Origin: a virus
Direction: 5' to 3' (one strand)
Length of the DNA: 26,035 nt
IMG/VR virus record: IMGVR_UViG_3300006735_000204
Span: 1-26,035 of that record
Shown piece after piece: positions 70-26,035 of the stretch. How positions within the stretch are numbered: position 1 is the stretch's first letter; each line of letters starts with the position of its first letter. Both the position numbers and the translations under genes were made by a program. The notes under the pieces are model-generated. The model was not told the DNA's origin and did no database searches. It saw nothing but the letters and a program-made list of their open reading frames with translations.

Positions 70-79
70 GTTTAATATA

Positions 80-86
80 TCTCCTG
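80..86 (-). promoter_or_regulatory. Ribosome binding site deciding the GTG start of gp17
   Basis: The minus strand reads CAGGAGATATATTAAAC followed by GTG. The AGGAG core is the best Shine-Dalgarno match in the 24-base gap after gp16. It supports the non-ATG start, although the spacing of about 11 bases is somewhat long. Confidence 0.55.
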
Positions 87-93
87 TATTTTA

Positions 94-1535: not shown

Positions 1536-1571
1536 GATTAAACCTTAGACTTTTGGTGCCAACTATACAAT

Positions 1572-1579
1572 TATTTAGG
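1572..1579 (-). promoter_or_regulatory. Candidate late promoter core (CCTAAATA) upstream of gp15
   Basis: The minus strand reads CCTAAATA across the stop codon of gp14, 36 bases before the gp15 ATG. The TAAATA half equals that of the T4 late promoter TATAAATA. The identical octamer CCTAAATA occurs upstream of gp13. This is inferred from position and recurrence only. Confidence 0.35.
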
Positions 1580-3871: not shown

Positions 3872-3893
3872 TTATCCACTAGTTTCCTAACTG

Positions 3894-3901
3894 TATTTAG
3901 G
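3894..3901 (-). promoter_or_regulatory. Candidate late promoter core (CCTAAATA) upstream of gp13
   Basis: The minus strand reads CCTAAATA across the stop codon of the 128-aa gene, 22 bases before the gp13 ATG. It is the same octamer as upstream of gp15. It would separate neck and tail-completion transcription from the baseplate block. Inference from similarity to the T4 late core only. Confidence 0.35.
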
Positions 3902-4283
3902 GTGCTGATGAAACGGGAGGAACTACCATAATATTTCCATTTACTAAAGTGTATGTAGTTGATCCACTACTTACCAATACATCATAAACATATCTACCTT
4001 CGGCAAGACTTCTAGTTGCAGTTGATCCAAGAGATATATTCAGTTTTCCTCCTAGAGCACTAGTAATACCAACAGTAAAAGATGTTGTTATTCCTAAAGT
4101 TGCTCCAATAGAAACGCTTTTAGAAATAGCACCAGATCCAGTGTAGTCAGTTAAATCAAACGCTGTATTTGCTACATTCGTTATATTAAAGGTAGTACTA
4201 AAATTAGCGCCACCGTATATTGTTAAATTGGTGCCATAGGGTACACCTAAGTCTGGATCAAAAGTTATATTTCTACTGGGCAT
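3897..4283 (-). CDS. Small beta-rich virion protein of unknown function, adjacent to gp13
   Basis: This 128-residue protein lacks any signal peptide or membrane segment and is rich in Thr, Ser, Gly and Val. The layout is an N-terminal YGTNLTIYGGANFSTTFNI (16-34), then FDLTDYTGSGAISKS (42-56), then GGKLNISL (78-85), then LAEGRYVYDVLV (93-104), ending in LVNGNIMVVPP. The order 'D-L-T-x-Y-T ... L-x-L ... L-x-x-G-x-Y-x-Y-D-V ... G-x-x-x-V' resembles small immunoglobulin-like domains at the N-terminus of phage baseplate upper and fibre proteins. This is a pattern judgement, not a proven homology. It sits directly upstream of gp13, where T4 has wac (fibritin), so a neck or baseplate accessory role is plausible. 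An AGGA ribosome site lies 7 bases before the ATG. Confidence 0.8.
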   Translation of the reverse strand: MPSRNITFDPDLGVPYGTNLTIYGGANFSTTFNITNVANTAFDLTDYTGSGAISKSVSIGATLGITTSFTVGITSALGGKLNISLGSTATRSLAEGRYVYDVLVSSGSTTYTLVNGNIMVVPPVSSAP

Positions 4284-10600: not shown

Positions 10601-12314
10601 TACCTGTGTTGGAGAAAACGGATTTTACATCACCGATCCCAAAAGAAAGAACATTAGAAACAGTTCTAGTTTCAGTAACCTTTGTAGTAGAAATTCCACT
10701 TCTAAAAGTTAAAATTTCATTTTCAATAAAATCTCCTTTTTTATCATATACAGTTACTGCAGTTCCTGCAACTGAGTGTCTTAAGAATGCAGTAGCACCA
10801 CTGCTGTTTCCTTCAACATAAGTAGGAGCAGACAAGTTGATTGTCTGATTAACTGTAAGTTCTGTAAATGGTACAATATCATATAAAGATGTTCCCCACT
10901 CATTAAGTTTTGGATAAGTGGTATTATATGATCCAGATTCAAGCCTAAAATCAAATACTCTTGCTAATCCAATTTCTTTGCCTGGAGCAGTCTCTGAATT
11001 TACACCTACTCTCTGATTACGCAAACTTAATACAAAAGTGTTACCTACACCGACTGTAGGAGATCTAAAGATACTATTAAGTTTTAAAGTTGGTCCAGTA
11101 TTGTACTGGAAGAATTGATCTTCAAGAGTTCTAGTTGTTCTTGGTTTATCAACATCAATAAATGTTGGGGCAATAGTTTCAATTTCATATCCTCTAACGT
11201 ATGCTTTACCTGGAGATATTCTACAAATAGAAAGATCATCAGATACACTTCCACCACTGGGAGTAAACTTACCAGCATCTAATAAACCTTGATTCCCCAT
11301 ATTATTGTTTAGGGAATTAATAATCGATACATTGAACGGTTTTACAACATAATGTCCACTCTCATCAAAAGTTCTTCTTGCAAGGACATCTCTAAGATCG
11401 TCATAGAATACACCACCACCTGCTCTAGCACTTCCTCTCTTTAGTGCTGAGGTTGTAAGGACACCATTAACAATAGTTGCTAACTCGATAAAGTTGTCAT
11501 CATTAAAGTCTGTTAAAGATTTTTTAAGAAGGCTAAGAGAGATTTTTAATCTATCTGCACCTGGAGCGCCATAATTATTAAATCCCTGAGAATTATCATT
11601 TAAAGATTCGTCAGAATTTGAATTTACAATTTCTTCTGATACAAATAAACCTACTCTATAACTTGGAGTATTTGTATATTGATCTAAAATTAAAGATTCC
11701 TTATTTACATTTACAAAGTTGCCACGAACAAAGTATATACCTTGTTCTATCTGAAATACTGAACCAATTGCTGAAGATCCTGAGGAAATCGTGCGTGCAA
11801 ATGGAGTTCCTGGATTAATAACTGAGTTTCCAAGAAGTCCAGATGAAATTGTTTGATTAGAAATAAGTTGTTCTCCATCGGAGAACGTTTGTGTTGCATT
11901 ATCTCTTGTAGAAGAACCTTTGTATGCCACATACAAAGTTAAATTATCTGTTTCAGAATCAGCAGAGAAAAGAACATTATCTACTGTTGCAGTAACACCT
12001 GATGTTTGTCCCGTAATTGTCGATCCAGTTAATTGTTCAATATATGCCTCAACAGGAACTCCTTGATAGGTATTCGCTAATTTGACAGCATAATATAATT
12101 GAGAATACCCAGTATTACCTGGAATAACTTTTGCACCTTCTTTAAAGAAATGCTGTCCAAATCTTTCTATTTGATTCTGCAGAATTGATTGCAGAGTTGA
12201 TAATTCTCTAGCCTGTACAGGATATCCAGGCTTAAAAAGCACCTTATGGTAGTCATTTGTCGGATCAAAATCGTCAAAATATGGTGCTACGTTTAAATTC
12301 GTCTGCTGTGGCAT
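4671..12314 (-). CDS. Large DUF4815-type virion structural protein (baseplate/fibre, gp10-region)
   Basis: This 2547-residue protein has the hallmark N-terminus of DUF4815 proteins of marine myoviruses: NLNVAPYFDDFDPTNDYHKV (6-25), then LFKPGYPVQARELSTLQSIL and HFFKEGAKVIPG. Further family-type landmarks: a helical coiled segment MKDIKKLEDRVRNLEYYTSL (about 1150-1170), IWNSWETNWPGG (about 1355), RSRNVEFYASNLKP with FFDGKDVTKYCVP (about 1455-1480), and DPLAQSFLV (about 1720) leading into FRTKDDENTPVRFQLRTM. A lysine-rich stretch lies near 800. Inserted modules include TSGA-type motifs (about 95-110, 500, 910, 1590), a GxGY pair (about 1955-2005) and an IGEEIVEY/RG module (about 2160). It is probably a structural component of the baseplate periphery or a fibre. 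T4 genes 9-12 occupy this position, but I see no direct similarity to them. It starts 6 bases after the gp8 stop and has only a weak ribosome site. Confidence 0.92.
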   Translation of the reverse strand: MPQQTNLNVAPYFDDFDPTNDYHKVLFKPGYPVQARELSTLQSILQNQIERFGQHFFKEGAKVIPGNTGYSQLYYAVKLANTYQGVPVEAYIEQLTGSTITGQTSGVTATVDNVLFSADSETDNLTLYVAYKGSSTRDNATQTFSDGEQLISNQTISSGLLGNSVINPGTPFARTISSGSSAIGSVFQIEQGIYFVRGNFVNVNKESLILDQYTNTPSYRVGLFVSEEIVNSNSDESLNDNSQGFNNYGAPGADRLKISLSLLKKSLTDFNDDNFIELATIVNGVLTTSALKRGSARAGGGVFYDDLRDVLARRTFDESGHYVVKPFNVSIINSLNNNMGNQGLLDAGKFTPSGGSVSDDLSICRISPGKAYVRGYEIETIAPTFIDVDKPRTTRTLEDQFFQYNTGPTLKLNSIFRSPTVGVGNTFVLSLRNQRVGVNSETAPGKEIGLARVFDFRLESGSYNTTYPKLNEWGTSLYDIVPFTELTVNQTINLSAPTYVEGNSSGATAFLRHSVAGTAVTVYDKKGDFIENEILTFRSGISTTKVTETRTVSNVLSFGIGDVKSVFSNTGIVAGTGGTAITGINTFSANVIQSTLSSVDNIVSVTAASAGVATLTSTSAQIPGTLKVNNLVEFSNVSVSSTFPIIARVVGVADTNVSISAVTSVDGEVEGTLPSSDFTLAQGELKILTTSLDVQSDGTLYTPLPKENISSVDLTDSFLSIRKSFTVEISNNQFTSDTLLVLTLPDGESYLPFTDERYTLTRSDGLIEVLTADKFSFSANGRELQIRNLGANDNRATLTVTIEKRKVKAKKKIKNRVSNLIVDKSITPASGIGSTTLNDGLSYGNFPFGTRVQDKIISLNAPDVIDIHGIYESNEVNPTSFGAPSMQLVQLNGPTATTDDLIVGELIIGQTSDASAVVAEIVNNTTIRYISKNNFKFVEGETITSQETEVSGIISDLDTSAFDISSNFTYSSGQNRTIYNYGFLTRTPDSDAPSKKIKIYFKNASFDTTDNGDIVTVDSYNDFDYSTEIKSVNGYLNTDIIDLRPRVTNYTTTAGTRSPLEFLGRTFNGTGSSVPNILASNENIFLDYSYYQGRIDRLFLNKDGKFQMKFGTPSDDPQRPNPVDNAIEIAEIRYPPYLHNVQQASIHYLKHKRFQMKDIKKLEDRVRNLEYYTSLSMLESNTANMFVPDSEGLNRFKSGFFVDNFTSFKSQDYFLSRKYSIDKTHKLMRPSHYTTSVDMLTGPVVDIDSTEDKRTSPIEGINIRKQNDILNLEYSEVEYVKQTFATRTESVTPFLISFWQGTIALVPSSDNWVTQNRLEAKTIEVPGNYAQVMAEAEEKFNVDPQTGLAATIWNSWETNWPGGTSVIRESNRRTETTRGPRFGRGGWINGGSGVAQWVQRTTTSTLEDVLDSTVEEGTTSRTGTTTMVVEDFEEIDAGDKVISSEIITTVRSRNVEFYASNLKPATRIYAFFDGKDVTKYCVPKLIEIEMKSGVFQVGETVSGRVLSTGLSEQSRNADPSINFRVAQSNHRRGDYDAPTETYPNNPYTIGNTPIPESYSSVSTTLNVDTYSLADQPQGDFFGFIQTGMVLVGETSGAEATVSNVRLVTDISSALGGSFFIPDPDNGDNPRFETGTNTFTLTNESDNDQNAANTIAEEAYPTSGSLETVQGQIMSIRNARIENRQEFESQLVNRTLDTEVVSSRTIGSPQTNEQIVGWYDPLAQSFLVQEAPGVFVTKCDVFFRTKDDENTPVRFQLRTMKDGFPTPNVLPFSEVVLNPNEVNTSDDGTIASTIEFDAPVYLEGESTEYAICLISNSTKYSVYISRVGENDIVSDAYISNQPTLGSLFKSQNASTWEPSQWEDLKFTLYRAEFESTGSVELYSPELSEGNKQIATLVPNPINVVSKQIRVGLGTTVHEVDYELGNTFFQGPNSNPTATGDLVGVAASATGTLTITNPGIGYTPADGMAGFSGVNLITVSGTGANATADITIQDGVAIGATISAGGDGYQVGDVLTVGTIGIASIGRNIRFTVAGIGVTTQLILDNVQGDFIVGAAGTIKFFNSSGISTELNGRTAQGDVTISSGGITQVSDGLHIKINHKNHGMNFEDNRVIISDVLSDVKPTKLTAAYDKASSDPIVVSDASAFSNFEGVGIGTTNTGLLLIGEEIVEYTSATSTTIGGITRGNLTKSYSVGTPVFKYELGGVSLARINKTHALSSATIADPITLDSYHIKLDMAEKLGNGNTDSLGAANNADRSVNAPFNKLFIGGSKTAGGYNVKATQNVPFEGVKPLVHNMTVEGTTLTAQIRTITAQSISGTEIPYVDAGFEDLTLNQNNYFDSPRAIYSKVNEDAKLAGFTGNKSVQMRMLLGTTNTLVSPQIDLQRCSLETFSNRINSEITNYATDARVNTLFDDPSACQYISKEVTLENPASAIRIMLDAHVNQVSDIRAFYSVSEDPGFEPIFTPFPGFANLNTRGDIINEADNNGTTNTFVPSSLLEGFGYDSFEFKEHLFEIDNLPSFRSYRIKIILASTSQVLVPKVRDLRVIAFA
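6300..6460 (-). repeat. Gly-x-Gly-Tyr repeat pair in the DUF4815 protein
   Basis: Two copies are visible: TITNPGIGYTPADG, then a spacer with GTGANATADITI, then ISAGGDGYQVGDVL. They match the repeat family in gp14 and the giant protein, including the Gly/Ala-rich spacer between units. Confidence 0.65.
9035..9062 (-). other. 9-bp inverted repeat inside the DUF4815 gene
   Basis: Arms TTCCTTGAT and ATCAAGGAA are separated by 10 bases, within codons for F-L-D-Y-S-Y-Y-Q-G. A 9-bp stem with a loop this size is expected about once by chance in 26 kb, so it is only recorded here. Confidence 0.25.
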
Positions 12315-12320
12315 AATTCT

Positions 12321-13874
12321 TTAGAACTGCAAGATAACTTTTATGTCTTCTTTTTGATTCGACGATCTTGTGATAGATGGTCTATTATCTACGTATATAA
12401 TGTTTCCAGAGTGTTGTTTTACTTCAGGAGAAGCAACACCAGTAACAAAGTCCATCCCAAGATAATATGTACGATTATTTATCGTGGTTTTGTTGTCGTT
12501 AAACGTATTATCAATGGTTAAAATAAGACCACTTGTAGGAGTAATATTCCTGTCTCCCCCCGCACTTGGAGAACCTGTGAAAGGTCTTAAAGTATATCCA
12601 AACTCAGGATTTGTTTGTGCAGTTCCTACAGTGCTAAATCCTGAAATTCTTCTATCTTGCCATAACTTTAGAACTCCTGTTGTCTTATCATAACTAACAA
12701 CTTTACCGGCAGCAGTTTGACCTGTTCCAACTGTTTGAGTGACAACAGAGTCTGCCGTGAATGATGCATCACTATATCCTACACCAACTAATTTTAATGC
12801 AGTTACGGCACTTGCTTTATCTGCGGTTAAAATAATGTTTGCTGTTGGAGATGTTGGATTCTCTACAATACCAATTCTAGAAAATTGATTTCCAGTAATA
12901 AAATCTGGATTTTCATTATCATTTTCAATTCTAGAATACATTAATACACTATATGCACCTAACTCACGATAAATGTCAGCGCCATGTCCTCCTTGAGGAG
13001 TTATAATAACATTAAATTCTGGTCTTGTAGTTCCAGTTGGAACTCCTCCAGCGACAAGATCAACATTTCCAAATGTATAACCAGATCCTTGATTAGAAAT
13101 TGTTATCGTTCCAATTTTACTGTCACCATCAATAGTTACCGTACACTCAGCACCAGATCCATCTCCCTCAATAGGAACTCTGGTATAAGTCTGATTTGCA
13201 GTTCCTAAACCAATTCCACGGTTCGTGATAGTGACAATTTTAAGAGAACCATCTACTGCATTACTTCTAACTGATGCAGTATCATTACTTGTGCTCCAAT
13301 CTGTTGGAACAGGAATAAAGTCTGTAGACTCAAATTTTACAATGTCTGCTGGTTTAATTGTGTAAAGATATTTCCAAATATATCCATCACCACTAGTTCC
13401 TGCTGATCTTGGTTCTAAATCAACAAATGTCGGTTCATCAAGAGAAGGTCTACCTAAGGTATTTTCAGGATCAGTTCCATTTTGAAGACAGATGTAAACT
13501 CTATAATCACTGTTTAATACGTAAAAGTTGGAATTATATAAGTTAGTAGAACCAGAAACTGGAGCAATATTTGAGCGACTATAATCATGACGATACATAT
13601 CAAAGGTTGTTCCAGAAGACCAATTTCTTTTTGGAATAACTTGCCTTACATCATCAGCATTAATTTTTTTCAGAGCAATCATAGTGTTCCAATAATCATT
13701 CTCCTGATCAAAATTATCTTTTGGTGCAGGAGGATTATCGTTCCAAGTACTGGAATAATCATCAGAATTTGGGAGACCAATGAAAGAATAATAAGAATTA
13801 CTAGCATTAGTAATTCCTGCAACGAAATTCTTTGCGTTTAATATTCTTACTTGATCAGTTATAATGGCAGCCAT
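12321..13874 (-). CDS. gp8: Baseplate wedge subunit gp8, with central insertion
   Basis: This 517-residue protein matches T4 gp8 (334 aa) at both ends. VRQVIPKRNW (76-85) matches T4 DAVIPRRDW. GDGYIWKYLYTIKP (162-175) matches GDGYVWEYLFEIPP, followed by FIPVP against YIVVP. The last 30 residues, with HSGNIIYVDNRPSI and EDIKVILQF, match T4 HSGEMIYMENRPPI and EEINILFTF. gp8 is a dimeric component of each baseplate wedge and binds gp7 and gp10 in T4. The extra length lies in the middle, about residues 200-440. It contains a GxGL/GxGY repeat pair (NRGIGLG, NQGSGYTFG), a PQGGHGADIYRELGAYSVLM segment and a GQTAAGKVVSY motif. The gene follows the giant gene after 33 bases carrying a candidate late promoter. 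Confidence 0.94.
   Translation of the reverse strand: MAAIITDQVRILNAKNFVAGITNASNSYYSFIGLPNSDDYSSTWNDNPPAPKDNFDQENDYWNTMIALKKINADDVRQVIPKRNWSSGTTFDMYRHDYSRSNIAPVSGSTNLYNSNFYVLNSDYRVYICLQNGTDPENTLGRPSLDEPTFVDLEPRSAGTSGDGYIWKYLYTIKPADIVKFESTDFIPVPTDWSTSNDTASVRSNAVDGSLKIVTITNRGIGLGTANQTYTRVPIEGDGSGAECTVTIDGDSKIGTITISNQGSGYTFGNVDLVAGGVPTGTTRPEFNVIITPQGGHGADIYRELGAYSVLMYSRIENDNENPDFITGNQFSRIGIVENPTSPTANIILTADKASAVTALKLVGVGYSDASFTADSVVTQTVGTGQTAAGKVVSYDKTTGVLKLWQDRRISGFSTVGTAQTNPEFGYTLRPFTGSPSAGGDRNITPTSGLILTIDNTFNDNKTTINNRTYYLGMDFVTGVASPEVKQHSGNIIYVDNRPSITRSSNQKEDIKVILQF
12476..12483 (-). promoter_or_regulatory. Possible internal late promoter core (GATAAATA) in gp8
   Basis: The minus strand reads GATAAATA inside the gp8 coding region, about 160 bases upstream of the DUF4815 start. 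It differs from TATAAATA at one base. The DUF4815 gene has no room for a promoter in its 6-base gap, so an internal one is possible. The octamer may equally be coding sequence in AT-rich DNA. Confidence 0.25.
13040..13240 (-). repeat. Gly-x-Gly repeat pair in gp8
   Basis: Two units, ITNRGIGLG... and ISNQGSGYTFGNVDLVAGG, are separated by the spacer GDGSGAECTVTIDGDSKIGT. They form part of the segment absent from T4 gp8 and belong to the same family as the gp14 repeats. Confidence 0.65.
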
Positions 13875-13907: not shown

Positions 13908-16900
13908 TTATGATGAGAACTTTTTAAACCTCACATATCTGGTTCTAACTAATTTTGTTGATGTAGAAATTCCAGTAACTTCATTAGTTCCAATTCCAGA
14001 CATTGTGTTTGCTGGATATGAAACTTCTTTAGTTCTTCCAGACAAGATAACCTTACCCCAAGAATAATCACCAAAAACAGAGGTTGTAATACCAACAATT
14101 CCTGTAGGAACGTTAGTAACATTTGCAAATACTCTCTTAACCACCGTGCTGACTCCAGCAACACTCTTAGAAACTAATTGAACAGAATCTACCGCATAAA
14201 CATTATCAGAGAACTCTGTGCCGATTCCAATAATAGTAGAGTTATCAGAATAAAGCGAAGTAATACTTGTGGTTGCAATACCAACGCTAGAATTTCTAAC
14301 GATAAAGTAATCATCTACACTGATTGAAGAAAGTGTAATTGCTGTTCCTACAATAGTAGAATCTCTCAAGACAGAATCATATGGAATATGTAAATCAAAT
14401 ATCATTTGAGTTGTTCCAATACCAACATTTGTTCCAAGTCCAACAATAATTCCAGAGTCTCCTTCATAAGAAGAAACATCATTTGTTTCAGTTTCTTTGG
14501 TTGGTGGACCAATAAGAACACTTGGTGGGGTCAAAGTCGTATATCCAGTTCCAGGATTGCTAATTGCCACTCCAGTTACAACTCCACCGCTGATAGTAGC
14601 AATAGCAGTTGCTCTGGTGCTACCAATACCAATACTAACTTCAGGAGTGGTTGAGTATCCAACTCCACCTGTAGAAAGAACAATCGAAGATATAGTTCCA
14701 GCAGCAGATACTACTGCTGTTGCCGCCGCTGATACAGTTACTATAGGTTGAATGAATGTCACTTCTTTCTGAACACTGTTTCTAAACGGAGCATCTTGAC
14801 TCTCATTTTCTAGATTAAACATTGGTCTTAATCTATCAACATAAAATATAGTAGAACCAATTCCAATAGGACTAATAATATTAGCAGTTGGGTTGATTAC
14901 TGGTTCATAAAGTTCTCTATCCTTACCAACTTCTTGACCGTTGATAATTTTATCTTGAGTTTGTCTACACCAAACAATAGGTCTTTCTAAAGTCGTATCT
15001 TTAGTATTACCTGGACCATAATATGGAATAGTTTTTACGGTATCAATAGAAGTAACTGTGCTTATAGTTCTTGCATTTTCTTGTAAGTCCTCTCGCTGAC
15101 CTCTATCTGGATCATAATTTAAAGTTACTTCATCACCAAATTTAATTGTTTCAAGAACTTCTCTATCAACAACATCAAGTTCATCTCCACTTCCTTTGTA
15201 GAAAACAATCTTAATATCATCACCCTCTTTTGGTGCTTCTTTAAATGTTATGACAGAACCACCATTGAACTCATATGCAACTCCAGGTTTCTGTAAAATG
15301 CTGTTGACAAAGATAAGTAAGAGATGATCAAGTTCAATTTTAGAACCTTTAGATTTCATAATAGATATCAAATTCCCACTTCTAAGTAATGGGAAGTCTA
15401 ATCTTACTCCATTAATAAATTTGTTTACATTATCTAAAGTTTCAAGAACACCCAGAGACCATCCAGTAAATTCATCAGAAATAATTTTTTCAATTTGAAT
15501 TTGAAACTCATTAGAACCGAATGATGATGTTGTTGGAATTCCTGTTGCACCACCAAAAGGAATTGTTAACACTTCTCCATTGCCATAACCATACCCAGTA
15601 TTAACTAATTCAAAGTCAATAATGCTAGAACCTTGACCAACAACAACATTAATTGTTGCATCAGTTCCAACTCCAGAAGAGGAAGAACTATATTGAAGAG
15701 GAATTGCTGAGTAAGAACTTGGAGAATCAAATACAACGAATGGAGGACTTGATGTTGTATATCCGGATCCAGGATTTGTAATAGTTACTCCTGTAATATT
15801 GCCATTAGATATTAATGCAGTTCCAATTGCAACTATATTTGATCCAGTAACACTAGTAGTTCCAACACTAACATTTACAGTTGTTTGAATTCCTGTTCTA
15901 TAACCAGAACCAGAATTACCTATTGAGATTGCAGAGATTGTTCCCGCTGTAGATACTGTAGCAGTTCCGCCAGCAGCAACAAGAGGTTGATAACCAAATC
16001 CTTCAGTAGAACCTACAGAAACAATTATTCCTCCTCTTGGGAAACTAGAAACACCAACATCTCTTCCCATTGATTCAACAAAAGCAGACTGAGTTGTCCT
16101 ACCAGAACCAACAAAAGAAATTGAAGTTATTCCAGTATTTTCACTAAGTTCATAGTTGTCTGTTGCACCAGAAACTTGGAAAATATCATTTATAAGAACA
16201 ATTGCCCCTTCATCAGAAATTCCAGTAACATTAGCAGCATCACTCGTAAGAGTAAATGTATTTTCTATACCATTAAAATCTGATGAGATATCATCAAAAA
16301 CATTATTTTTGTAATATGTTTCATTAATTGAATTTGGAGCAGCATTTCTAATAAATGATCTGCCTTGGAAAGTCGAACTTGTCGATATTCCTTGGAAATC
16401 TCTTTCATCTGGAGCATTTGTTGATGTTCCTAATGGAGTATTTCCATATGGTGCTTCAACAAAGTTAAGAGTATTATCGACAATATTATAATTACCAACA
16501 ACTTTAGTAATTGTAGTACCAGTATCAATTCCAGTAAGTGGTGTTCCCATCCACTGTCTACGTACTCTTACAAAGTTTGTAGAACCAATACCAACTCCTT
16601 CAATTAACATAATTTCTTCGCCAATTCTGACAAGATCTCCACCAAAGAAAGAGGATATTCCAGTAAATTCTATGATATCATCAGTGGATACTACATTACT
16701 AGCTAAAGATGATGTAACAGCTGTTGATACGATTGGAGACTGAATTAAATTATCAAGTGCTACCAGGACTTTGGGATTTTGATTAATTGAAGTAAATCTA
16801 TGAGAAGTTCCAATTCCAACACTTGTTATATCAACAACCTGAGGAATGACTGATAATGCATTCTGTGCGCTAGTTGCTATCTTAATTTCATTATCGTTGA

Positions 16901-19900
16901 CCTTAACTGCAAATAGACCACTCTGAGGAAGTTTTGTTGTTGTTATACCTGTTGATGGGAATGTTGTAGATGCAATTGAAATTGCTTGTGTAGATCCAAT
17001 ACCAGCATGAGTATACCTTAACTGTTCTCCTGTTACAAAGAAATGATTTGGTATTTTAATTGTATCTGCATTAACACTAACAATGCTACTATCATTACCT
17101 AAGAAATATCTCTCAAAGATAGGATCGCTCTTATGTTCAAGTGGGAAAGATCTCTTGATATCTCTGTCGGTTCCTGTATATTCAGCAAATCCAGTTTCTA
17201 TAGTTCCGTTAACAAGAGAGATTACATCTTTCTGATCATCTTCCAATCTTAAGGCATTCATAAAGACATGAACCTTTGCGTCAATGCCAGAAAGTGGGGT
17301 ATAAAGAAGTTCTGTAGTTGCAGCAGCACCTACTACATTAATTCTACTACCAAAAGTACCTAAGCCAATATGAGTTTCGATATTTCCATATTCAGTATCA
17401 TAGGTGTCATGAGTAGAGATACTTTCTACATGATCGTCAACAATGATATATTCTAGGAACTCATATCGATTATTTGTAGTATCATGAACCTGAACTAAGA
17501 AGTGTGCCGCATCATATCTATCGGTACTTGCTGAAATATGACTTGGATAGGATCCAATGACGTTCTCTGTAGGTGAACCAGAAGCAGAAATACTAGTAAT
17601 TTTAGATTCAATTCTGGCATGTTTCATGTCAGTGAATGACGTTCCAGTTGATACTGAAGATAAACCGACAACCATTGTATTAACAACTGCTGTAGTTCCA
17701 ATTCCTGCTGATGGATTAAAATCAACTTTTATCTGGCCACCAGAAAGGTAAGCAGTATAAGTTCCGAATCCTGTTGCAGATAAAGGACTACTATTTGTAG
17801 TCAGTTTACCAAACTCTAAAATAGAAACATTAGTTCCATCATGAACAATATTTAATTCTTGTGCTTCAAATTCATTTAAGTTAAACGTAGATGTTGAACC
17901 AAAAGAAACGTTTGATACATCTGGAGCAATAGTAATGAGAACTTTAGCAGAGTGATAAGTATCACCAATACTTACAATAGTTTCCGATGTACCTGAATTT
18001 ACGACAACACTTTCTGAATCTATTATAGATCCTCCAATAACAGTGCTACCAGTGCTCAAGAGATTATCATTTAAATTATATGAAATCGCTGTGATATCAT
18101 AATCATTCACCGATGATCTAGTTGGATAGAATTGAAGTTGTCCTTCATTGCCAGAAATAGCAAAGTCAAAAGATCCCTGGTCATATACAGTTTCAAGTCT
18201 TGCATACTGATTTAAATATCCAAAAGATTCATCATGAATCAGATCAACAATCATTAATTGTCTCTCTTGAGTAAATCTATGATCTCTCAAATAAGTAATG
18301 TATTTTCTAAAGCGGAACTCATCTAATGAGAAAGAATTTACAACAGAAAATTGAGTTGCTCTAGGATTACTGTTGAACTGACTGCTTAAATCGTCAATAG
18401 AGAGAACTCTATTTCCTACTGATTCAGTAAAGTCAGAAAGTATTCTATTTTCAAGAATAATTTCGTCAGATAAAATACCATTTTCAATATCAAAATTTAA
18501 ATTATTCTCTCTAGCGATATCAAAATCAAATACACAGTTTGTATCTGTAAATCCACCAAGACTGCTTATGATAGAAAGATCTGTTAATTCTGTTGAGAGT
18601 CCTATTCTGATAGGACTCTTGTTTGTGGTTTCAATTTGAAGATCACCAAACTTTCTATATCCTAAAGTGTGATTAGTACTAGAAACAACATCATTCCAGG
18701 TATCAAAAGGAATTCTTGACTTTAAAGAATATGCAAAATTTTGATAATAAAAATTGTCTTGCAATCTTTGTAAATCTGTGTTTAATATGCCAGAGTATGA
18801 TTGATTACCCTCAAATATATTTGTAGATGGGCCAAGATCAAAATAACATTCATAGGCAGTAACACTAGATGCGATACCGATTAACTCAGATGTTAATCCA
18901 CGAATTTTATCATTAACAACAAAATCATCAGTTGAAAGAACTCTTAGAGTTTTAGTTCCTCTATCCCAACTCTGTACAGTTCCACTCTTACCATTTGTGG
19001 TTACTATTTCTCCTGGCAGATAGTTTGATACTTCAACTATAGTATCAAATATTGGGAAAAACTTTTGTGGTATAACAATACCAGAGGAATTGATAGGATC
19101 AAATACTCCAGGAACTTCTCCAGTGCTTAAATCATCTGCAATATTATATGTTATACTACCAATTCCTCCAATATTTGGAGTAACACTAGTTACAGTAAAT
19201 AACTTATAATCATAGTTTTCGGAGTTGAATCCTTTTCCAGTTGATCCGACACCAACACTAATATTCTCAACTAAAACTTTATCATCTACATTGAATGGGA
19301 AAGAATCAGAAGTAGAGAAACCAACCGACATAGTTAGAGTTACATCTTGTGTAATCGTATTAAATCCAACTGTACTAATACCAACGCCGTTGCTATTTTG
19401 AATTGGAAGTAATGTTGGGACTACATTGTTAATACCACTAGTATTTCTTAAAATAGTGACTTCGGAATCACCAAGATTATAATTAAGGTCCAAGTCAGTA
19501 ATTCTACTTCCAGTTTCTCCATCAAATGCGAGTAACTTAGGTGCAGAAGTATATCCTCTTCCTGCAGAAGTTATGCCAATAAAATTAATTTTTGCAAATC
19601 CATCAACTTTTATTATTTGTGGTAGAGATGCACTTGGTTTGAGGGTAGTGTCAGTTGGGAAATCATAACCAATATCATTTATTTTTATTTTTTCAATTTG
19701 ACCAATAATGTCGCTAGTAGCGGCAAGATCTGCTCTGACTCCATTAATAGTGGTTATTGAAGAAATTTCTGGTAAAATATTATAGTTTTTACCAGTGCTT
19801 GTTATATCAACTTTTGCAATTGGTCCATCAGTATGAACACAGTCAGTTATGTATGATATTGAAGACGAAGTTGAAACGTATGAATCTCTTTCAGGAACTT

Positions 19901-22900
19901 CCGCAAGATTAAAGTCAAACGAATTGGTTCTAGCGATTGCTACTCTTCTACTACCATTATAGACACTATTCTTAGATTGAAGTTGATTGTTTCCTACAAC
20001 CTCATCATCAATTACAATTTGCAATTGATTTTCTGAAAGATCATTGTCAGTAATTGGTTCTACTTTATAATAAAGTGTTTGTGGTGTTGATTGTCCAATA
20101 GTAACAGTAACTGTTGCATCAGTGTTTATTCCAGGAAGCCCATTTCTAATTACATCAAAAGTATTAGAAGAACCATCAGTCTTCCACTTCGATGTGCAGT
20201 TTTCGTCAAGATAGAAATTAAGTCTAAACGCTGAATATGATGAAGTTTGTTTTATGTACGACAATGATGTATCAGACATATCAAATACAACACTTGAACT
20301 TCTGTAAGCAGGAATTGGTGGATTAACTAGTCCAAATTCTCCGGCAGCAGTAGAAGCAATACTAACAATTGATGGTTTTAATTTTGTTGCATCATGATGA
20401 GTATTTGATAACCTAAAGTTATTATTATCTACCTTTACAATATAAAAAATGTTATCATTATGAATAACTTTGTCTCCACTTTGATATCCATGATTAGTAA
20501 TTGTAAACGTGTTAGTTGTAGTGTTTATACCAGAAGATGCAAAAGTATTAATACCAACTAAAATTCTTCTGTTTAATGAATTATATTTTACTTTATAAGT
20601 GCTAGAGAGCGATGGATTTACATCAATAAAAACTCTATGGTCTTTATGTAAGGAATGATTTTCCTTGGTTACTACAGTAACAGATCTCTTGGTAATATCT
20701 CCTGTTAGATTATCGTATCTTGTGGCAAAACTATGTGTACTACCTGCGCCAACATTAGTAAAGAAGATAGTTCTAGCAGTATTGCCAACTCCAATGAATC
20801 CATCTGTTCCTAGTCCAACTCTTACTGTTGCAATTCCAATCAGGTCGTCTGAGATCTTTGCAACAAACAAGGTTTGTCCATCAGTAAAAGTCTTTGCAAC
20901 ACCAATAGAACCACTCTCATTGTATTGAATTTCAGTTCCGCCATTTGGAGAATATGTAAGACTATCACCTGTTTTTAAATTGTGCCCCTTAATAAAGACT
21001 GATTTGGTTGGAATAAAGATTTGAGTAGAACCTGCACCAGGATTACCAAAGGTTATAGTAGTTCCAGAACCAACCTCAGTTGCTGTTCCAAGTCCAAGTG
21101 CTTCTACTGGAGTGAAGTAAATTTCTTTATTTCTTCTGAACTCGTATGTAGTCTTAAATCCAGCATTAATTATAAATCTTCTAGGAATTTCTGTTAGAAC
21201 CGATCCAATAGTATGAATACCATCTACACCATTTACCGCTCTAAGAACTCTAAATCGTGAGTTTAGTTTATCAACATTTAAAACTTTGACTTGTTCTGTT
21301 CCTATTCCAAGAATATCATTAGGTACAATAGAACTACTATTTAAATCTCCACCTCTTACATTAAAGAATGTAACTATACCGGTAACTGTTGATGAACCTA
21401 TAGATACTCCTGTGGTGCCAGTACCAACTAGTCTAAATGATTCATTTTTAACTTCAATAGTATATGATCCTTCAATTTGCGAAGATGTAGTTGACATACC
21501 TGATATAGTAACTATATCGAGGTCATTAAAAGAATGAGGTGTATCTGATTCTACACTGTAATGTCCTTTTTCATTTATTGGTAAGAAAGATGAGTTAGAT
21601 ATGATGGTTTCATTTGATGTTATAGATAAAACTGTTTTACCCTTAAGAAGAGAAACTTTTCCAGCAGCACCAAAACCAGTTGTACCTGTATCAGAGAAAT
21701 TTACCAGATCTCCAACTTTGTAAAAATCTCCACCATTCTTAATCTCAATCCCTCCAATTCCATTTTTATTAGTAGAAACAATTTCCCCAGTCTGACTTAA
21801 GTTATTTGGAACGTAAATATATGGAAACTCTAAATCGGGATCGTTCAAGTTATATGAATAAGTGTTTCTACACCAATCTTGATTATTTAAGTCATAGTCA
21901 TCTTGGTTAGCAGAATTTTCAAAATTGAATGTAATTGGAGTAGAGTTATACTTATCACCAATTAAATATGGAAACTGTGGTTCCTTGAAATTTTTAAATG
22001 CTTCTGATGAAGAAACATTGCCAGAAGATATTGTTGCAAAGTATGCATAAATTCCTTTAGGGAAGTCTGGTGTTATACAGAACCTTCCATTATTTCTATC
22101 CAAGTAACTATCATCATTATTCTCATAATAAGTATAATCTTCAGTAAAGAATCCTAATGGGTAAATTGATGTTGGTGGCCCATCTGTTCTTAATTCATTA
22201 AGTCTATAACTAGACTTCATTAATGTAACAATGCCACCATTAGACCCGGAATATCCATATGGCCCATAAATTGGATTACCATCATATGCCCAACCAATAA
22301 TTGGAGAGTGATCAGTAAATTCAGTTTCTTTTGAGTTTACAATTTTTAAATCAGGTGTTCCAAATAAAGTTTCTCCACCTTCACCAAGAGAGAATAGAAG
22401 TTCTCTTAGTTTTCTAGGAGCATACATGTGGTAACATTGTAATCCAAATTTACCACTAGAAGATTCTGAAATCACTACATCATCATCTTTTAGTTCTTTA
22501 TTTTGATAAAGTTTCTCAAATAAGTTAAATCTCCAAGTTTTAATAATAGGATTAAACTCTGCTCGTGTTTCAGTTGTAACTACATCAATACTTGTAGTAT
22601 CTTGAGTATATCCGATTCCTGGTTCAATTACTTTAACTTCTAGTAATCTTCCATTCTCAATAATAGGAGTCAGAACACAACCAATACCAGTTCCATTAAT
22701 AACAAGATCTGGTGTTGATGTATACTTAGAACCTACATTAGAAACAATAACTTCGATAATTCTACCATCAGCAGTAACTATTGGAGTTACCTGTGCATTT
22801 TGACCAGAAATGATAGAAACAGATGGTTTTCTATTAAGATTAATAATTTCACTATCTCCATATCCAGATCCACCAGATTCTAAATGAATCGATGTTAAAC

Positions 22901-25900
22901 TACCTCTAAAGATAGGTTGAACAACTGCTTTAAATGTATCAGTTCCAACTGATGCAATTCCAACTGCACCTTTAACTGTTACCGAAATTGGTTGATAATT
23001 AAAATATTGAGTTCCAGATCCTTTAGAAATTATGTCAACATACTGTCTTGTATTATAGAAAAATTCTCTACCTTGGTCAGATGTTCCAATCTGAGAAAGT
23101 CTAAAGGAATCAGAATCTATTTTAGTAATATAATAATCAGTGCCATCTGTAAGACCACTTATAGTATTACCCGATCCAACAGAATATCTTACAATTTCTC
23201 CAGAATTATAATCATGATTTTTAATTGTAATTGTATCAAGTGCAGTGTTTATACCAGCGACACTAACCGATCTTTTTTTGGTTTGATAACCAGAACCATT
23301 ATCTATAATGTTGATTGCATCAATAACTGCCTTCTTGTTTACACACTCTAACCTATGTTTACCTATTCCAAAGAAAGTTAATGTTACTGTATTAATTCCA
23401 ACTACGGCATCTGCTAATTTAGTATGAAGTTTAACTGTTGTTGGACTAACAATTGAGGTATAATATACTGCATCTGTAGATAATCCACCTACACCATTTT
23501 GTGCATCAGTTCTGTAAATTACTTCTTCACCACTTCTAAGTTTATGATAAGTTGAGAATCCAATGGTTGATTGAGTTGCACCTAGTCCAACTCGCTCTGA
23601 TTGTGGATCTGAGAAAAATTCTACACTATGATCAATTAATTTTAAAGAGGCAGATGCTTTTGCATCAGATCCGTTTCCACCAGTGATTGATATGGTTGGA
23701 TTTTCAATGTAGTCAAATCCACTATCTACAATATTAATTTGTCTTAAACTTCCTTCAACTGCCAAAAATCCAGTAGCACCAGTACCTACAGCATCTTCGA
23801 TTAGTAATTCTGGAGGATTGATAACATCAAAACCATCTCCAGGAGATGTTACTTCAATATCTTGAATGGGACCAAAGTAAACTAAATCGCCAGATTTGTA
23901 GTTTAAAATTTCAACTCCATTAATAAGTACACCAGTAGGTCCAATAGCAGTTTCTTCTGGAGAATATGTCTCTATAGGGGTAGAAATTTCTCTGTAGAGT
24001 TTTTGTGGTTCTACAAATTTATCATGTACTTCTTGTGGTTCAAGAATATTATCTTCTACAGTTGGTGATCCAGATAAAATTACAAAATTAGAACGATAAA
24101 TGTTTGATAAAGACTTTGCTAATTTAATATTATTATCATCAACTCTTTTTACAAAGTAAATTCCTTCACCACCAGTCTCTCCGTCAAACAATGAAGATAT
24201 GATACTAGTTTCAGTAAATTCTTCTCCATCAAAAGAAGATGTTGTTACTATCTTCTGTGGTGTATAATAAACAGATTCACCAGTGTAATATCCATGATCA
24301 ATAATAGTAAAAGTATCTCCAGTAAATGTTCCACTAAGTATGTTCTGTTTTTTACCAGTAACAATTGGTTGAGTTGCATATGAAGGTAAGGAGTTTGATG
24401 CAACTAAAAGAGAATCCGAATATTTTTTCTTATAAATGTTTTGTACGTTTGCTTGAAATTTTTTCAAGAAAGTAAACTCTAAAGAATTTACTTTACTAAT
24501 TTTTTTCCTAATATAATAAGACCCAGAAACATTAATGTTTCCAGAAGTTTTTATAAACACCGTGGTTGAGGATATAACATCAGATACAGTGCAATCTGAA
24601 GATTCTGTTCCAAAAATATCGTTTATTGTTAACTCATCCCCTATCTTCAAATAATGTTCTTTTTTCAGAATCAATTTGTAAGTTTGTGGAGAAGATGTAC
24701 TAATAATTTCAATACTGTCAATAGTGTATTGAACTGGATTACTATAAAACCAATTTTTAAATTTAAATCTATTATCGTTTACGCCCAGAGATTTAATTTT
24801 AAAATTGTCTGCTACTTTAAAATCATGTGCTTCTTTTGGTTTTGAAAATCCAGTTAAAACAGATCCAACTCTCACATCAATATTAAATCCATCATCAGGT
24901 TTGTTATAAACAAAGCTACTGATACCTACACTATCTCCATCAACAATCGTATCTTCAATATTACTACAACCTAAGAACTGGGTAAGTGTCTTAGATGTAT
25001 ATGAAACTATTCCAGTTGGATTAGCAGTATTATTTGGATACTTTACAAAAAGATTACCAGAAGTTTCAAACCCAACAGTGGAGTCTACATCAATAAAGGT
25101 AGAACCAGCAGATACATTGCCAATTGCATGAGTTTTTGGAGAAACTTTAAAGTTTCCATAAGTAGCACCAAGAACTCTACTATCTCTATTATATCCACTA
25201 TCAAAAGATAGTCTATAATATGTTTTTCCAAATCCGACTTTAATTTCTTCTACATCATAAATTGAAGTATATGCTTTTGCTGGGTAATCCTGGAAGACGG
25301 TTTGTAATTCTAATTCTTTTGGATCTCCTACAATACTCTCTACAACAAAATTTGATGTTACTAAATTTTGTGCATTTGATGGAGTAAAGAGATATTCTTT
25401 TGTCCTAACAATATCAATATTTTCTCCATACAGAACTTTAAATAAAATTTTGAAAGACTCATCTGTACCTTTACTACTGTAAAAGTCTTTTGATTGTTTA
25501 ATAAATTTATTTTGGTCTAAACCAGGAAATAAAGTTCTATCAGATAGTCCAGGAAGAAGTTGAACTTTGGTTTTTTTAAGAAATTCTGTTAAAAACAAAC
25601 ATGTTAAATTCTCTATGGTTGCATCAGACTTATGTTCTGCAGCTGCAGTAGATTCAAAGACAAGACTTTCTGGATCTACGTCTGACTTATAAGAAGATAC
25701 GCCAACAAAACCTCTTATACATCCAGTAAAAGAATATTGCGTCTTTCCAGTATATAATATAATTTCATCATCAATTTTAATGAGTCCATTCGTTTCAGGA
25801 AACTTTTGAGTACCTGCAGGAGACTCTGATGGATTGATATTGATAGTTGTTGCAAACTCATCAATATCATCAGACAGAACTATTGTATGATTTATATTTG

Positions 25901-26035
25901 TTTGTTCATCAAGTGCAATATATTGATCAATATTTTGAATTAAATCAATAGGAGCACTTTTAAATTCTTGAGAAAGATAATATTGCTCTAAAAACTCTGA
26001 GATAAGCGGAAAATCATTCGCAACATAAGTTGGAA
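13908..26035 (-). CDS. Giant virion structural protein in the gp7 position (5' end outside window)
   Basis: The frame is open from the window edge to TAA at 13908-13910, giving at least 4041 residues. No start codon occurs before a TTG at 25596-25598, and that TTG is not the start: coding continues upstream with PTYVANDFPLISEFLEQYYL and LIKIDDEIILYTGK. Counting from the edge, visible elements are: FCCH-like 'NH-x-G' repeats near 575, 935, 1845 and 2990; a YHYH-like domain near 1215-1335 (GWAYDGNPIYGPYGY); a non-repetitive helical stretch near 2400-2600 (LRDHRFTQERQLMIVDLIHD); a FVNSILQKPGVAYEF module near 3575; and at least 15 Gly-x-Gly-Tyr units. It ends with DYSWGKVIL and RYVRFKKFSS. It is most likely a baseplate or peripheral fibre protein, judged by position next to gp8. 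Homology to T4 gp7 (1032 aa) is not visible. Exact role unknown. Confidence 0.93.
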   Translation of the reverse strand, partial: PTYVANDFPLISEFLEQYYLSQEFKSAPIDLIQNIDQYIALDEQTNINHTIVLSDDIDEFATTININPSESPAGTQKFPETNGLIKIDDEIILYTGKTQYSFTGCIRGFVGVSSYKSDVDPESLVFESTAAAEHKSDATIENLTCLFLTEFLKKTKVQLLPGLSDRTLFPGLDQNKFIKQSKDFYSSKGTDESFKILFKVLYGENIDIVRTKEYLFTPSNAQNLVTSNFVVESIVGDPKELELQTVFQDYPAKAYTSIYDVEEIKVGFGKTYYRLSFDSGYNRDSRVLGATYGNFKVSPKTHAIGNVSAGSTFIDVDSTVGFETSGNLFVKYPNNTANPTGIVSYTSKTLTQFLGCSNIEDTIVDGDSVGISSFVYNKPDDGFNIDVRVGSVLTGFSKPKEAHDFKVADNFKIKSLGVNDNRFKFKNWFYSNPVQYTIDSIEIISTSSPQTYKLILKKEHYLKIGDELTINDIFGTESSDCTVSDVISSTTVFIKTSGNINVSGSYYIRKKISKVNSLEFTFLKKFQANVQNIYKKKYSDSLLVASNSLPSYATQPIVTGKKQNILSGTFTGDTFTIIDHGYYTGESVYYTPQKIVTTSSFDGEEFTETSIISSLFDGETGGEGIYFVKRVDDNNIKLAKSLSNIYRSNFVILSGSPTVEDNILEPQEVHDKFVEPQKLYREISTPIETYSPEETAIGPTGVLINGVEILNYKSGDLVYFGPIQDIEVTSPGDGFDVINPPELLIEDAVGTGATGFLAVEGSLRQINIVDSGFDYIENPTISITGGNGSDAKASASLKLIDHSVEFFSDPQSERVGLGATQSTIGFSTYHKLRSGEEVIYRTDAQNGVGGLSTDAVYYTSIVSPTTVKLHTKLADAVVGINTVTLTFFGIGKHRLECVNKKAVIDAINIIDNGSGYQTKKRSVSVAGINTALDTITIKNHDYNSGEIVRYSVGSGNTISGLTDGTDYYITKIDSDSFRLSQIGTSDQGREFFYNTRQYVDIISKGSGTQYFNYQPISVTVKGAVGIASVGTDTFKAVVQPIFRGSLTSIHLESGGSGYGDSEIINLNRKPSVSIISGQNAQVTPIVTADGRIIEVIVSNVGSKYTSTPDLVINGTGIGCVLTPIIENGRLLEVKVIEPGIGYTQDTTSIDVVTTETRAEFNPIIKTWRFNLFEKLYQNKELKDDDVVISESSSGKFGLQCYHMYAPRKLRELLFSLGEGGETLFGTPDLKIVNSKETEFTDHSPIIGWAYDGNPIYGPYGYSGSNGGIVTLMKSSYRLNELRTDGPPTSIYPLGFFTEDYTYYENNDDSYLDRNNGRFCITPDFPKGIYAYFATISSGNVSSSEAFKNFKEPQFPYLIGDKYNSTPITFNFENSANQDDYDLNNQDWCRNTYSYNLNDPDLEFPYIYVPNNLSQTGEIVSTNKNGIGGIEIKNGGDFYKVGDLVNFSDTGTTGFGAAGKVSLLKGKTVLSITSNETIISNSSFLPINEKGHYSVESDTPHSFNDLDIVTISGMSTTSSQIEGSYTIEVKNESFRLVGTGTTGVSIGSSTVTGIVTFFNVRGGDLNSSSIVPNDILGIGTEQVKVLNVDKLNSRFRVLRAVNGVDGIHTIGSVLTEIPRRFIINAGFKTTYEFRRNKEIYFTPVEALGLGTATEVGSGTTITFGNPGAGSTQIFIPTKSVFIKGHNLKTGDSLTYSPNGGTEIQYNESGSIGVAKTFTDGQTLFVAKISDDLIGIATVRVGLGTDGFIGVGNTARTIFFTNVGAGSTHSFATRYDNLTGDITKRSVTVVTKENHSLHKDHRVFIDVNPSLSSTYKVKYNSLNRRILVGINTFASSGINTTTNTFTITNHGYQSGDKVIHNDNIFYIVKVDNNNFRLSNTHHDATKLKPSIVSIASTAAGEFGLVNPPIPAYRSSSVVFDMSDTSLSYIKQTSSYSAFRLNFYLDENCTSKWKTDGSSNTFDVIRNGLPGINTDATVTVTIGQSTPQTLYYKVEPITDNDLSENQLQIVIDDEVVGNNQLQSKNSVYNGSRRVAIARTNSFDFNLAEVPERDSYVSTSSSISYITDCVHTDGPIAKVDITSTGKNYNILPEISSITTINGVRADLAATSDIIGQIEKIKINDIGYDFPTDTTLKPSASLPQIIKVDGFAKINFIGITSAGRGYTSAPKLLAFDGETGSRITDLDLNYNLGDSEVTILRNTSGINNVVPTLLPIQNSNGVGISTVGFNTITQDVTLTMSVGFSTSDSFPFNVDDKVLVENISVGVGSTGKGFNSENYDYKLFTVTSVTPNIGGIGSITYNIADDLSTGEVPGVFDPINSSGIVIPQKFFPIFDTIVEVSNYLPGEIVTTNGKSGTVQSWDRGTKTLRVLSTDDFVVNDKIRGLTSELIGIASSVTAYECYFDLGPSTNIFEGNQSYSGILNTDLQRLQDNFYYQNFAYSLKSRIPFDTWNDVVSSTNHTLGYRKFGDLQIETTNKSPIRIGLSTELTDLSIISSLGGFTDTNCVFDFDIARENNLNFDIENGILSDEIILENRILSDFTESVGNRVLSIDDLSSQFNSNPRATQFSVVNSFSLDEFRFRKYITYLRDHRFTQERQLMIVDLIHDESFGYLNQYARLETVYDQGSFDFAISGNEGQLQFYPTRSSVNDYDITAISYNLNDNLLSTGSTVIGGSIIDSESVVVNSGTSETIVSIGDTYHSAKVLITIAPDVSNVSFGSTSTFNLNEFEAQELNIVHDGTNVSILEFGKLTTNSSPLSATGFGTYTAYLSGGQIKVDFNPSAGIGTTAVVNTMVVGLSSVSTGTSFTDMKHARIESKITSISASGSPTENVIGSYPSHISASTDRYDAAHFLVQVHDTTNNRYEFLEYIIVDDHVESISTHDTYDTEYGNIETHIGLGTFGSRINVVGAAATTELLYTPLSGIDAKVHVFMNALRLEDDQKDVISLVNGTIETGFAEYTGTDRDIKRSFPLEHKSDPIFERYFLGNDSSIVSVNADTIKIPNHFFVTGEQLRYTHAGIGSTQAISIASTTFPSTGITTTKLPQSGLFAVKVNDNEIKIATSAQNALSVIPQVVDITSVGIGTSHRFTSINQNPKVLVALDNLIQSPIVSTAVTSSLASNVVSTDDIIEFTGISSFFGGDLVRIGEEIMLIEGVGIGSTNFVRVRRQWMGTPLTGIDTGTTITKVVGNYNIVDNTLNFVEAPYGNTPLGTSTNAPDERDFQGISTSSTFQGRSFIRNAAPNSINETYYKNNVFDDISSDFNGIENTFTLTSDAANVTGISDEGAIVLINDIFQVSGATDNYELSENTGITSISFVGSGRTTQSAFVESMGRDVGVSSFPRGGIIVSVGSTEGFGYQPLVAAGGTATVSTAGTISAISIGNSGSGYRTGIQTTVNVSVGTTSVTGSNIVAIGTALISNGNITGVTITNPGSGYTTSSPPFVVFDSPSSYSAIPLQYSSSSSGVGTDATINVVVGQGSSIIDFELVNTGYGYGNGEVLTIPFGGATGIPTTSSFGSNEFQIQIEKIISDEFTGWSLGVLETLDNVNKFINGVRLDFPLLRSGNLISIMKSKGSKIELDHLLLIFVNSILQKPGVAYEFNGGSVITFKEAPKEGDDIKIVFYKGSGDELDVVDREVLETIKFGDEVTLNYDPDRGQREDLQENARTISTVTSIDTVKTIPYYGPGNTKDTTLERPIVWCRQTQDKIINGQEVGKDRELYEPVINPTANIISPIGIGSTIFYVDRLRPMFNLENESQDAPFRNSVQKEVTFIQPIVTVSAAATAVVSAAGTISSIVLSTGGVGYSTTPEVSIGIGSTRATAIATISGGVVTGVAISNPGTGYTTLTPPSVLIGPPTKETETNDVSSYEGDSGIIVGLGTNVGIGTTQMIFDLHIPYDSVLRDSTIVGTAITLSSISVDDYFIVRNSSVGIATTSITSLYSDNSTIIGIGTEFSDNVYAVDSVQLVSKSVAGVSTVVKRVFANVTNVPTGIVGITTSVFGDYSWGKVILSGRTKEVSYPANTMSGIGTNEVTGISTSTKLVRTRYVRFKKFSS
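14520..15925 (-). repeat. C-terminal cluster of Gly-x-Gly-Tyr repeats in the giant protein
   Basis: In order of translation: NSGSGYRTGIQTTVNV, NPGSGYTTSSPPFVVF, NTGYGYGNGEVLTI, then further on TGGVGYSTTPEVSI and NPGTGYTTLTPPSVLI. Spacers contain the recurrent VSAAATAVVSAAGTI and GIGTAL types of sequence. The PP following GYTT is shared by two units. The FVNSILQKPG module interrupts the cluster. Confidence 0.75.
15265..15320 (-). other. FVNSILQKPG-x-x-Y module in the giant protein
   Basis: The sequence LLLIFVNSILQKPGVAYEF is followed by GGSVITFKEAPKEGDDIKIV. The pattern '(V/I)-F-V-N-x-x-L-Q-x-P-G-x-x-Y ... I-x-F-x-x-A-P-x-x-G-D-x-I-x-V' is common in phage tail fibres and baseplate-attached proteins as a small beta sandwich. 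A weaker relative, IVLINDIFQVSGATDNYEL, lies upstream near 16170-16205. Confidence 0.6.
18596..18619 (-). other. Perfect 10-bp hairpin with a 4-base loop inside the giant gene
   Basis: Arms AGAGTCCTAT and ATAGGACTCT pair perfectly around the four-base loop CAGA on the transcript strand. It encodes S-P-I-R-I-G-L. No U-run follows, so it is not a terminator. A stem this long with so short a loop is expected well under once in 26 kb of random sequence. It may be a structural or pausing element, or chance. Confidence 0.5.
22030..22390 (-). other. YHYH-like domain within the giant protein
   Basis: Signature segments in order: GETLFGTPDL, then DHSPIIGWAYDGNPIYGPYG, then a variable loop, then PLGFFTEDYTYYEN, then NGRFCITPDFPKGIYAYFATI. 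The core 'SP-I-x-G-(W/F)-A-x-D-G-x-P-I-Y-GP' is the hallmark of the YHYH domain family. The role of this family in virions is not known to me. Confidence 0.75.
22595..23850 (-). repeat. N-terminal cluster of Gly-x-Gly-Tyr repeats in the giant protein
   Basis: In order of translation: SPGDGFDVINPPELLI, DSGFDYIENPTISI, then DNGSGYQTKKRSVSV, GGSGYGDSEIINL, NVGSKYTSTPDLVI and EPGIGYTQDTTSI. Several units are degenerate (GFD-Y and GSK-Y), which suggests old duplications. An FCCH-like unit at about 23170-23240 lies inside the cluster. Confidence 0.7.

Follow-up and report, generated by a model that had tools for sequence, protein, structure and literature searches.

Gene content and reading frame

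The stretch of DNA analysed here, hereafter the window, is a 26-kb IMG/VR fragment (IMGVR_UViG_3300006735_000204, 26,035 nucleotides) from a T4-like marine myophage whose relatives include the cyanophages S-SM2 and Bellamy. The genes described below all lie on the minus strand. They encode the gp16 terminase small subunit (94-516, PF11053), the gp15 tail sheath stabiliser (516-1535, PF16724), a gp14-type neck protein (1575-3026, PF11649), a gp13-type neck protein (3026-3871, PHROG 211), a 2,547-aa VrlC/DUF4815 protein (4671-12314), and the baseplate wedge protein gp8 (12321-13874, PF09215). Next to gp8, positions 13908-26033 encode 4,041 of the 4,057 residues of a giant gp7 (baseplate wedge subunit/initiator), which matches PHROG 2885 'baseplate wedge subunit' with E=0 and 3,682 bits (residues 1-3401 on positions 21-3365 of the 4179-position profile). 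The gp7 gene is flanked downstream by gp8 and upstream, on an overlapping contig, by gp6, as it is in Bellamy, S-SM2, and T4, and the T4 gene 7 product at this place has 1,032 aa, as the original prediction stated. The order gp25-gp6-gp7-gp8-VrlC is kept among marine relatives, and gp6-gp7-gp8 is found in T4. A solved structure, PDB 9euf ('DUF4815 domain-containing protein / ORF65'), is related to the VrlC of the window (E 1e-42) and could help to place VrlC in the marine baseplate.

The original prediction, which was made from the window alone, described one uninterrupted frame reaching the window edge, with no start codon ahead of an internal TTG. This description was correct. The frame runs for 4,041 codons without a stop and past the edge, and its earliest ATG, GTG, or TTG inside the window is the TTG at 25598, which is internal. 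At the base composition of the window, the chance of such a stop-free run is ~10^-141, and the GC contents of codon positions 1, 2, and 3 (43, 41, and 15%) give a strong coding signature. The first 16 codons lie just past the window edge. Contig L015, which is 99.6% identical to window positions 20711-26035 (5.3 kb), extends farther upstream; on it, the gp6-position frame stops at a TAA and the gp7 ATG comes directly after, adding MTEKRIKFSNIIKSQV ahead of the first residue of the window. The full-length protein has 4,057 aa, a mass of 439 kDa, and a pI of ~4.8, and the proposed virion protein of more than 4000 residues thus has its real start.

An open end in an IMG/VR fragment leaves room for a frame made by chimeric assembly or from mis-joined genes. 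However, no upstream stop or assembly frameshift was found on L015, where the frame continues to the ATG, and this contig is independent of the window. The same frame is open in all 80 related IMG/VR loci (contigs found by the gp7 N-terminus); 37 of these keep it open over 3,100 residues or more, up to the end of each sequence, and nearly all 80 have the Met 16 codons upstream of the position of the window edge. Furthermore, several isolates have full-length colinear homologues. An assembly artefact was rejected on these grounds, and we regard its probability as negligible.

Core segments of gp7

Two segments connect the giant protein with T4 gp7. Segment A (residues 140-234; 25332-25616) contains the helix motif SKDFYSSKGTDESFKILFKVLYGE and matches T4 gp7 727-758. 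Segment B (residues 2408-2470; 18624-18812) contains YYQNFAYSLKSRIPFDTWNDVVSSTNHTLGY, and its counterparts are T4 gp7 865-889, phiM19 932-985, and HTVC008M 758-814. Comparison with T4 gp7 by blastp gave 56% identity across 32 residues (E 6e-5), and hhalign of the N-terminal core against the T4 gp7 family (five Straboviridae gp7s) gave an E-value of 8e-11. When a profile of segment A was searched against 177,635 PDB sequences, the two known T4-type gp7 sequences were the only significant matches (E 1.7e-5), as they were with a deeper alignment (E 6.5e-5). Segment B was first located via HTVC008M and phiM19. A broad profile around B had no match in the PDB, whereas a narrow alignment including these two phages ranked the two known gp7 sequences at the top of the whole PDB (E 0.03 and 0.05); the T4 gp7 match of B is short and is the one with E 0.03. 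In a set of 14 phages that includes T4, with 806 ORFs in all, HMMs of A and B picked one ORF per phage, which was gp7, the gene after gp6. The order of A and then B is common to T4, phiM19, HTVC008M, and all the giants.

The AlphaFold2 model of the N-terminal 440 aa is mediocre (pLDDT 67, pTM 0.35), with helices at 3-60, a beta domain at 66-158, the helices of A at 160-218, and then further beta domains; its overall TM-score to T4 gp7 is low (0.12-0.13). Only two PDB chains, from 9f4a and 5iv5, passed E<1e-3 in a Foldseek search with this model. Both entries contain gp7, and we infer from the chain lengths (1,031 and 1,004), which fit gp7, that these chains are gp7. Several tailspike domains were also matched weakly (3-4 Å over 85-97 columns, E 0.02-0.4).

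The giant protein of the window is almost certainly gp7, and its core very probably consists of two colinear pieces, as judged from the profile matches. The original prediction had left a choice between a positional replacement of gp7 and its massive elaboration, built from modules. The second was borne out, since the A and B profiles best match T4 gp7 in the whole PDB, in the T4 order, and nothing else among the 806 ORFs matches them. The first was not supported. A replacement, in which an unrelated giant would occupy the place of gene 7 and the gp7 role would fall to a different protein, for instance VrlC, would agree with a published statement that pelagi- and cyanomyophages have no T4 gp7 and apparently use VrlC in its place (PMC7029224). 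It would also agree with a similarity to T4 gp7 that is undetectable over most of the giant's length, and with HTVC008M giving only sub-significant matches to the T4 family. Nevertheless, VrlC carries neither segment, with no match to A or B in the window's copy, is a separate DUF4815 protein with a solved relative of its own, and coexists with gp7 in S-SM2, P-HM1, HTVC008M, and phiM19. VrlC was therefore rejected as gp7, and a replacement is very improbable.

Contrary to PMC7029224, marine T4-like phages appear to keep gp7, judging by the presence of A and B in I899_gp055 of HTVC008M and in the giants. It has been noted before that gp7 is so divergent that many gene clusters hold it (Sullivan et al., PMC3037559). 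It was likely missed earlier because fewer than 200 residues make up its recognisable core, and as many as 2.8 thousand others divide them.

Sites of growth

In T4 gp7, A and B flank the Pfam gp7 domain V (766-861), a helical domain (643-689) precedes A, and domain VI (920-1012) comes after B. In the window gp7, A and B are separated by an insertion of ~2,170 aa (residues 235-2407; 18813-25331), and B is followed by a C-terminal extension of 1,571 aa (residues 2471-4041; 13911-18623), where T4 has 107 aa and 143 aa (domain VI), respectively. A and B lie 105-107 residues apart in the Straboviridae that yielded both, 510 in HTVC008M, 787 in phiM19, 2,174 in the window gp7, and 1,540-2,784 in the other giants. 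The residues after B number 143 in T4, 202 in HTVC008M, 22 in phiM19, 1,571 in the window gp7, and 3,715 in P-SSM4. Conversely, the ~640 residues that make up the N-terminal domains I-IV of T4 gp7 (1-640) are absent from the giant, in which A starts at residue 140 with nothing significant against T4 upstream of it. Considering that phiM19 and HTVC008M likewise have A close to the N-terminus, domains I-IV are features of the T4 lineage and do not define the core. Judging by the A-B spacing and the residues after B, the giants were enlarged in two places, between A and B and at the C-terminus, whereas T4 grew before A.

The two added parts, both glycine/serine/threonine-rich and modular, with beta-rich structure where modelled, behave differently. 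Across 37 environmental loci the A-B insert hardly changes in length (2,164-2,339 residues), for which reason the idea of the insert as a host-range hot spot was dropped. The C-terminal extension ranges in length from 433 to 3,715 residues, and S-SSM7 and B23 encode most of it in a second gene, split off at different points. In B23 (L267:15962-27741), two genes with a 4-nt overlap correspond to window residues 1-2924 and 2940-4039, and in S-SSM7 (L008:3562-22656) the halves are parted by a gp9-type gene. Continuity of the chain through the extension is not essential in these two phages, although the B23 split may reflect a sequencing frameshift.

Relatives and presence in virions

A match to the gp7 N-terminus was found in 466 records, nearly all of them cyanophages, and many Kyanoviridae carry a full-length homologue flanked by gp6 and gp8. 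The closest comparisons are gp7 of Bellamy (gp111, YP_009791268, 4,067 aa; 52% identity, window residues 1-4039 on 17-4065) and of S-SM2 (YP_004322253, 4,156 aa; 46% identity across window residues 1-4039), which have the same neighbours gp6 and gp8 and differ from the window gp7 only by sequence divergence and small length differences. Other colinear isolate homologues are those of SynMITS9220M01 (42% identity), P-TIM68 (37%), and S-SCSM1_15 (35%; 4,120 aa).

More distant relatives vary the same plan. Like the window gp7, T4 gp7 (1,032 aa; PDB 5iv5, 5hx2) has A followed by B in the slot between gp6 and gp8. The gp7s of HTVC008M (I899_gp055, 1,016 aa) and phiM19 (gp93, 1,007 aa) show the plan of the giants at the size of T4 gp7, with A and B close to the N- and C-terminus and an insertion of 510 and 787 aa, respectively, between them; unlike the window gp7, they have little or no C-terminal extension. 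In S-SZBM1_208 (6,619 aa), S-RIM2 gp7 (6,378 aa), and P-SSM4 gp7 (7,312 aa), which are encoded directly after gp6, A and B are present with an insertion of ~2,700-2,800 and a C-terminal extension of ~2,900-3,700 residues, and, unlike in the window gp7, an extra N-terminal part of ~500 residues precedes A. P-SSM4 gp7 (L007:2145-24083) is the largest protein found in this comparison.

The original prediction regarded the size of the protein as exceptional for a baseplate component. This was not supported, since proteins of 3,000-7,300 aa are common at this locus in cyanophage genomes and have already been annotated as gp7 or baseplate wedge initiator. The lengths at the locus range from 1,016 aa (HTVC008M) to 7,312 aa (P-SSM4), so 4,057 aa is ordinary for the family.

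The proposed check by mass spectrometry of virions is in effect already available for homologues. In CsCl-purified virions, S-SZBM1_208, the homologue encoded after gp6 (6,619 aa, 724 kDa), was represented by 71 peptides (PMC9146016). The GenBank record of S-SCSM1_15 labels it 'virion protein', in line with the virion mass spectrometry run by its authors (PMC9602691). S-CREM2 ORF122 (1,937 aa by coordinates), a candidate homologue listed as a wedge protein, was represented by 91 unique peptides (PMC10665884). The giant gp7 thus belongs to a known family whose virion location is known from mass spectrometry of relatives, and its existence is no discovery.

Labels in the databases are uneven. 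RefSeq calls the gp7 orthologue of HTVC008M, I899_gp055 (L004:3436-6486), 'head closure Hc2', the name also borne by PHROG 3465, a family that this protein fills. This label likely comes from a 'GY'-type module in common with gp14 (PHROG 460). HTVC008M 059, 062, 063, and 064 are labelled 'baseplate wedge initiator', yet they carry neither of the gp7 core segments.

Modules of the elaborations

The elaborations contain a recurrent glycine-rich unit of ~30-50 residues, approximately ATAxVSxxGxIxxIxITNxGxGY, which we call the 'GY' unit. The window gp7 has at least seven: one each at residues 759-781 (23691-23759), 1082-1110 (22704-22790), and 2143-2167 (19533-19607), and two each at residues 3356-3427 (15753-15968) and 3771-3833 (14535-14723). 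Four more are found in gp14 and two in gp8, and VrlC is marginal. In a dozen related marine phages, nearly all matches fall in gp7, gp8, and gp14, whereas the T4 stretch had none. Neither the 'GY' unit nor an 'NHGY..GD' module could be named by a Pfam search at E<=10.

The most conserved named domain of the insert is a YHYH-type domain (residues 1165-1388; 21870-22541). It matches PF14240 at residues 1237-1336 with 86.5 bits against a curated cut-off of 25, and its AlphaFold2 model is confident (pLDDT 84, pTM 0.81). A Foldseek search of the PDB with this model gave no match under E 0.99 and hence no similar solved structure, and the surrounding region (residues 980-1500) had no sequence match in the PDB. 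Relatives of the domain are YHYH proteins of cyanophages and of giant viruses (Mimiviridae ChoanoV1, Megaviridae).

YHYH domains fused to tail or baseplate proteins have been predicted to be Zn hydrolases with a site of three His and one Asp (Iyer et al. 2021, PMC7824862), and this domain could accordingly make gp7 an envelope-degrading metal hydrolase. Conservation in the gp7 copies is partly in line with such a role: His1242 is kept in 103 of the 108 aligned copies, and Asp1251, Asp1299, Asp1312, Asn1315, and Arg1317 are kept in all 108. However, the gp7 copies do not have the YHYH motif itself, showing Y[SA]H[LIV] or no His instead, and only 59 of the 108 have any His in the motif segment. 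The first ~87 of the 193 Pfam positions are likewise unmatched in gp7, and GQYHYH is found in a separate protein, S-SZBM1_207. A Zn-hydrolase site in the YHYH domain of gp7 was rejected, since the His triad is not kept and one His (1242) with Asp remains; overall, we consider a hydrolase function of gp7 unlikely.

S-SZBM1_207 (L095:22634-24232; 532 residues) adjoins gp7 and retains an intact YHYH motif. Comparison of the sequences suggests that the free and the gp7-embedded YHYH domains may have diverged in function. No relatives of S-SZBM1_207 were found in bacterial genomes. P-SSM4 also encodes, near gp7, a 1,443-residue protein (L007:25346-29677) with a second, partial YHYH-type domain and 'GY' units.

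Discussion

In T4, T6SS, and Vibrio phage XM1, a gp7/TssG-type subunit and gp6/TssF form the wedge as a heterotrimer with two copies of gp6/TssF (PMC6300606, PMC10457771). By analogy with these structures, A, B, and the helical N-terminus of the giant would form the (gp6)2-gp7 heterotrimer with its core bundle and trifurcation, with one copy of gp7 per wedge and six per particle. The minimal gp7 orthologue is gp17 of XM1 (242 aa), in which residues 80-106 (inside domain I) and 201-242 (the C-terminus) lie outside the rigid core, each holding one set of six tail spikes; its authors propose that the pull on the spikes passes through the wedge to the sheath (PMC10457771). Like the window gp7, XM1 gp17 has the same proposed core with a domain I loop and a C-terminal tail beyond it. 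Unlike the giant, in which these parts comprise thousands of residues, it binds separate tail-spike proteins with two short parts. Mapping by domain order, we infer that the two enlarged sites of the giant may correspond to the spike-holding sites of XM1, and on this analogy we propose for the extra mass a peripheral position in the baseplate, facing the host.

In the proposed arrangement, the insertion and the C-terminal extension would project from the wedge as permanently attached arms around the six wedges, giving a covalently attached peripheral layer of 6 x 0.44 MDa, or ~2.6 MDa. This layer would dock fibres or spikes or touch the host, and the contact signal would pass to the sheath through the gp6-gp7 core. 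That the extra mass forms a large peripheral structure, as the original prediction had it, is plausible, and the explanation as a whole, a split gp7 core in the wedge with peripheral elaborations, is probably correct. For a peripheral, host-facing function of the elaborations, which is argued by analogy, we put the chances at about even. We found no baseplate structure of Kyanoviridae in the literature, and no receptor-binding domain was identified in gp7.

The main rival to peripheral arms is a purely structural role, in which the extra mass would space or stabilise the baseplate as a scaffold, or offer a binding surface to other virion proteins, and would not touch the host. The occurrence of the 'GY' unit in gp7, gp8, and gp14 of the same particle fits protein-protein packing, and the near-constant length of the insert in the clade (n=37) is unlike that of typical host-range parts. 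On the other hand, the length range of the C-terminal extension, with a gene of its own in S-SSM7 and B23, is as expected of a peripheral, exchangeable part, and the two enlarged sites would be sites of spike attachment by analogy with XM1. Such a structural role is a serious but somewhat doubtful possibility. Returning to peripheral arms, a bolder form would be that the spike-attachment sites of the gp7 core became megadalton arms, and that some of the work of recognising the host and triggering falls to the wedge subunit itself instead of separately encoded spikes or short fibres. We offer this only tentatively and regard it as rather unlikely.

In summary, the useful result of this analysis is the anatomy of gp7, a bipartite core that appears to be decorated at different places by lineage: before A in T4, between A and B in phiM19 and HTVC008M, and both between A and B and after B in the giants. 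This anatomy would correct the published claim that marine T4-like phages lack gp7, and the split of the core helps explain why gp7 genes have been mislabelled. The YHYH-type domain stands out as the most conserved part of the insert, with a fold that has no solved example. For the biology of these abundant ocean phages, the anatomy names two sites where their host-contact machinery may sit.
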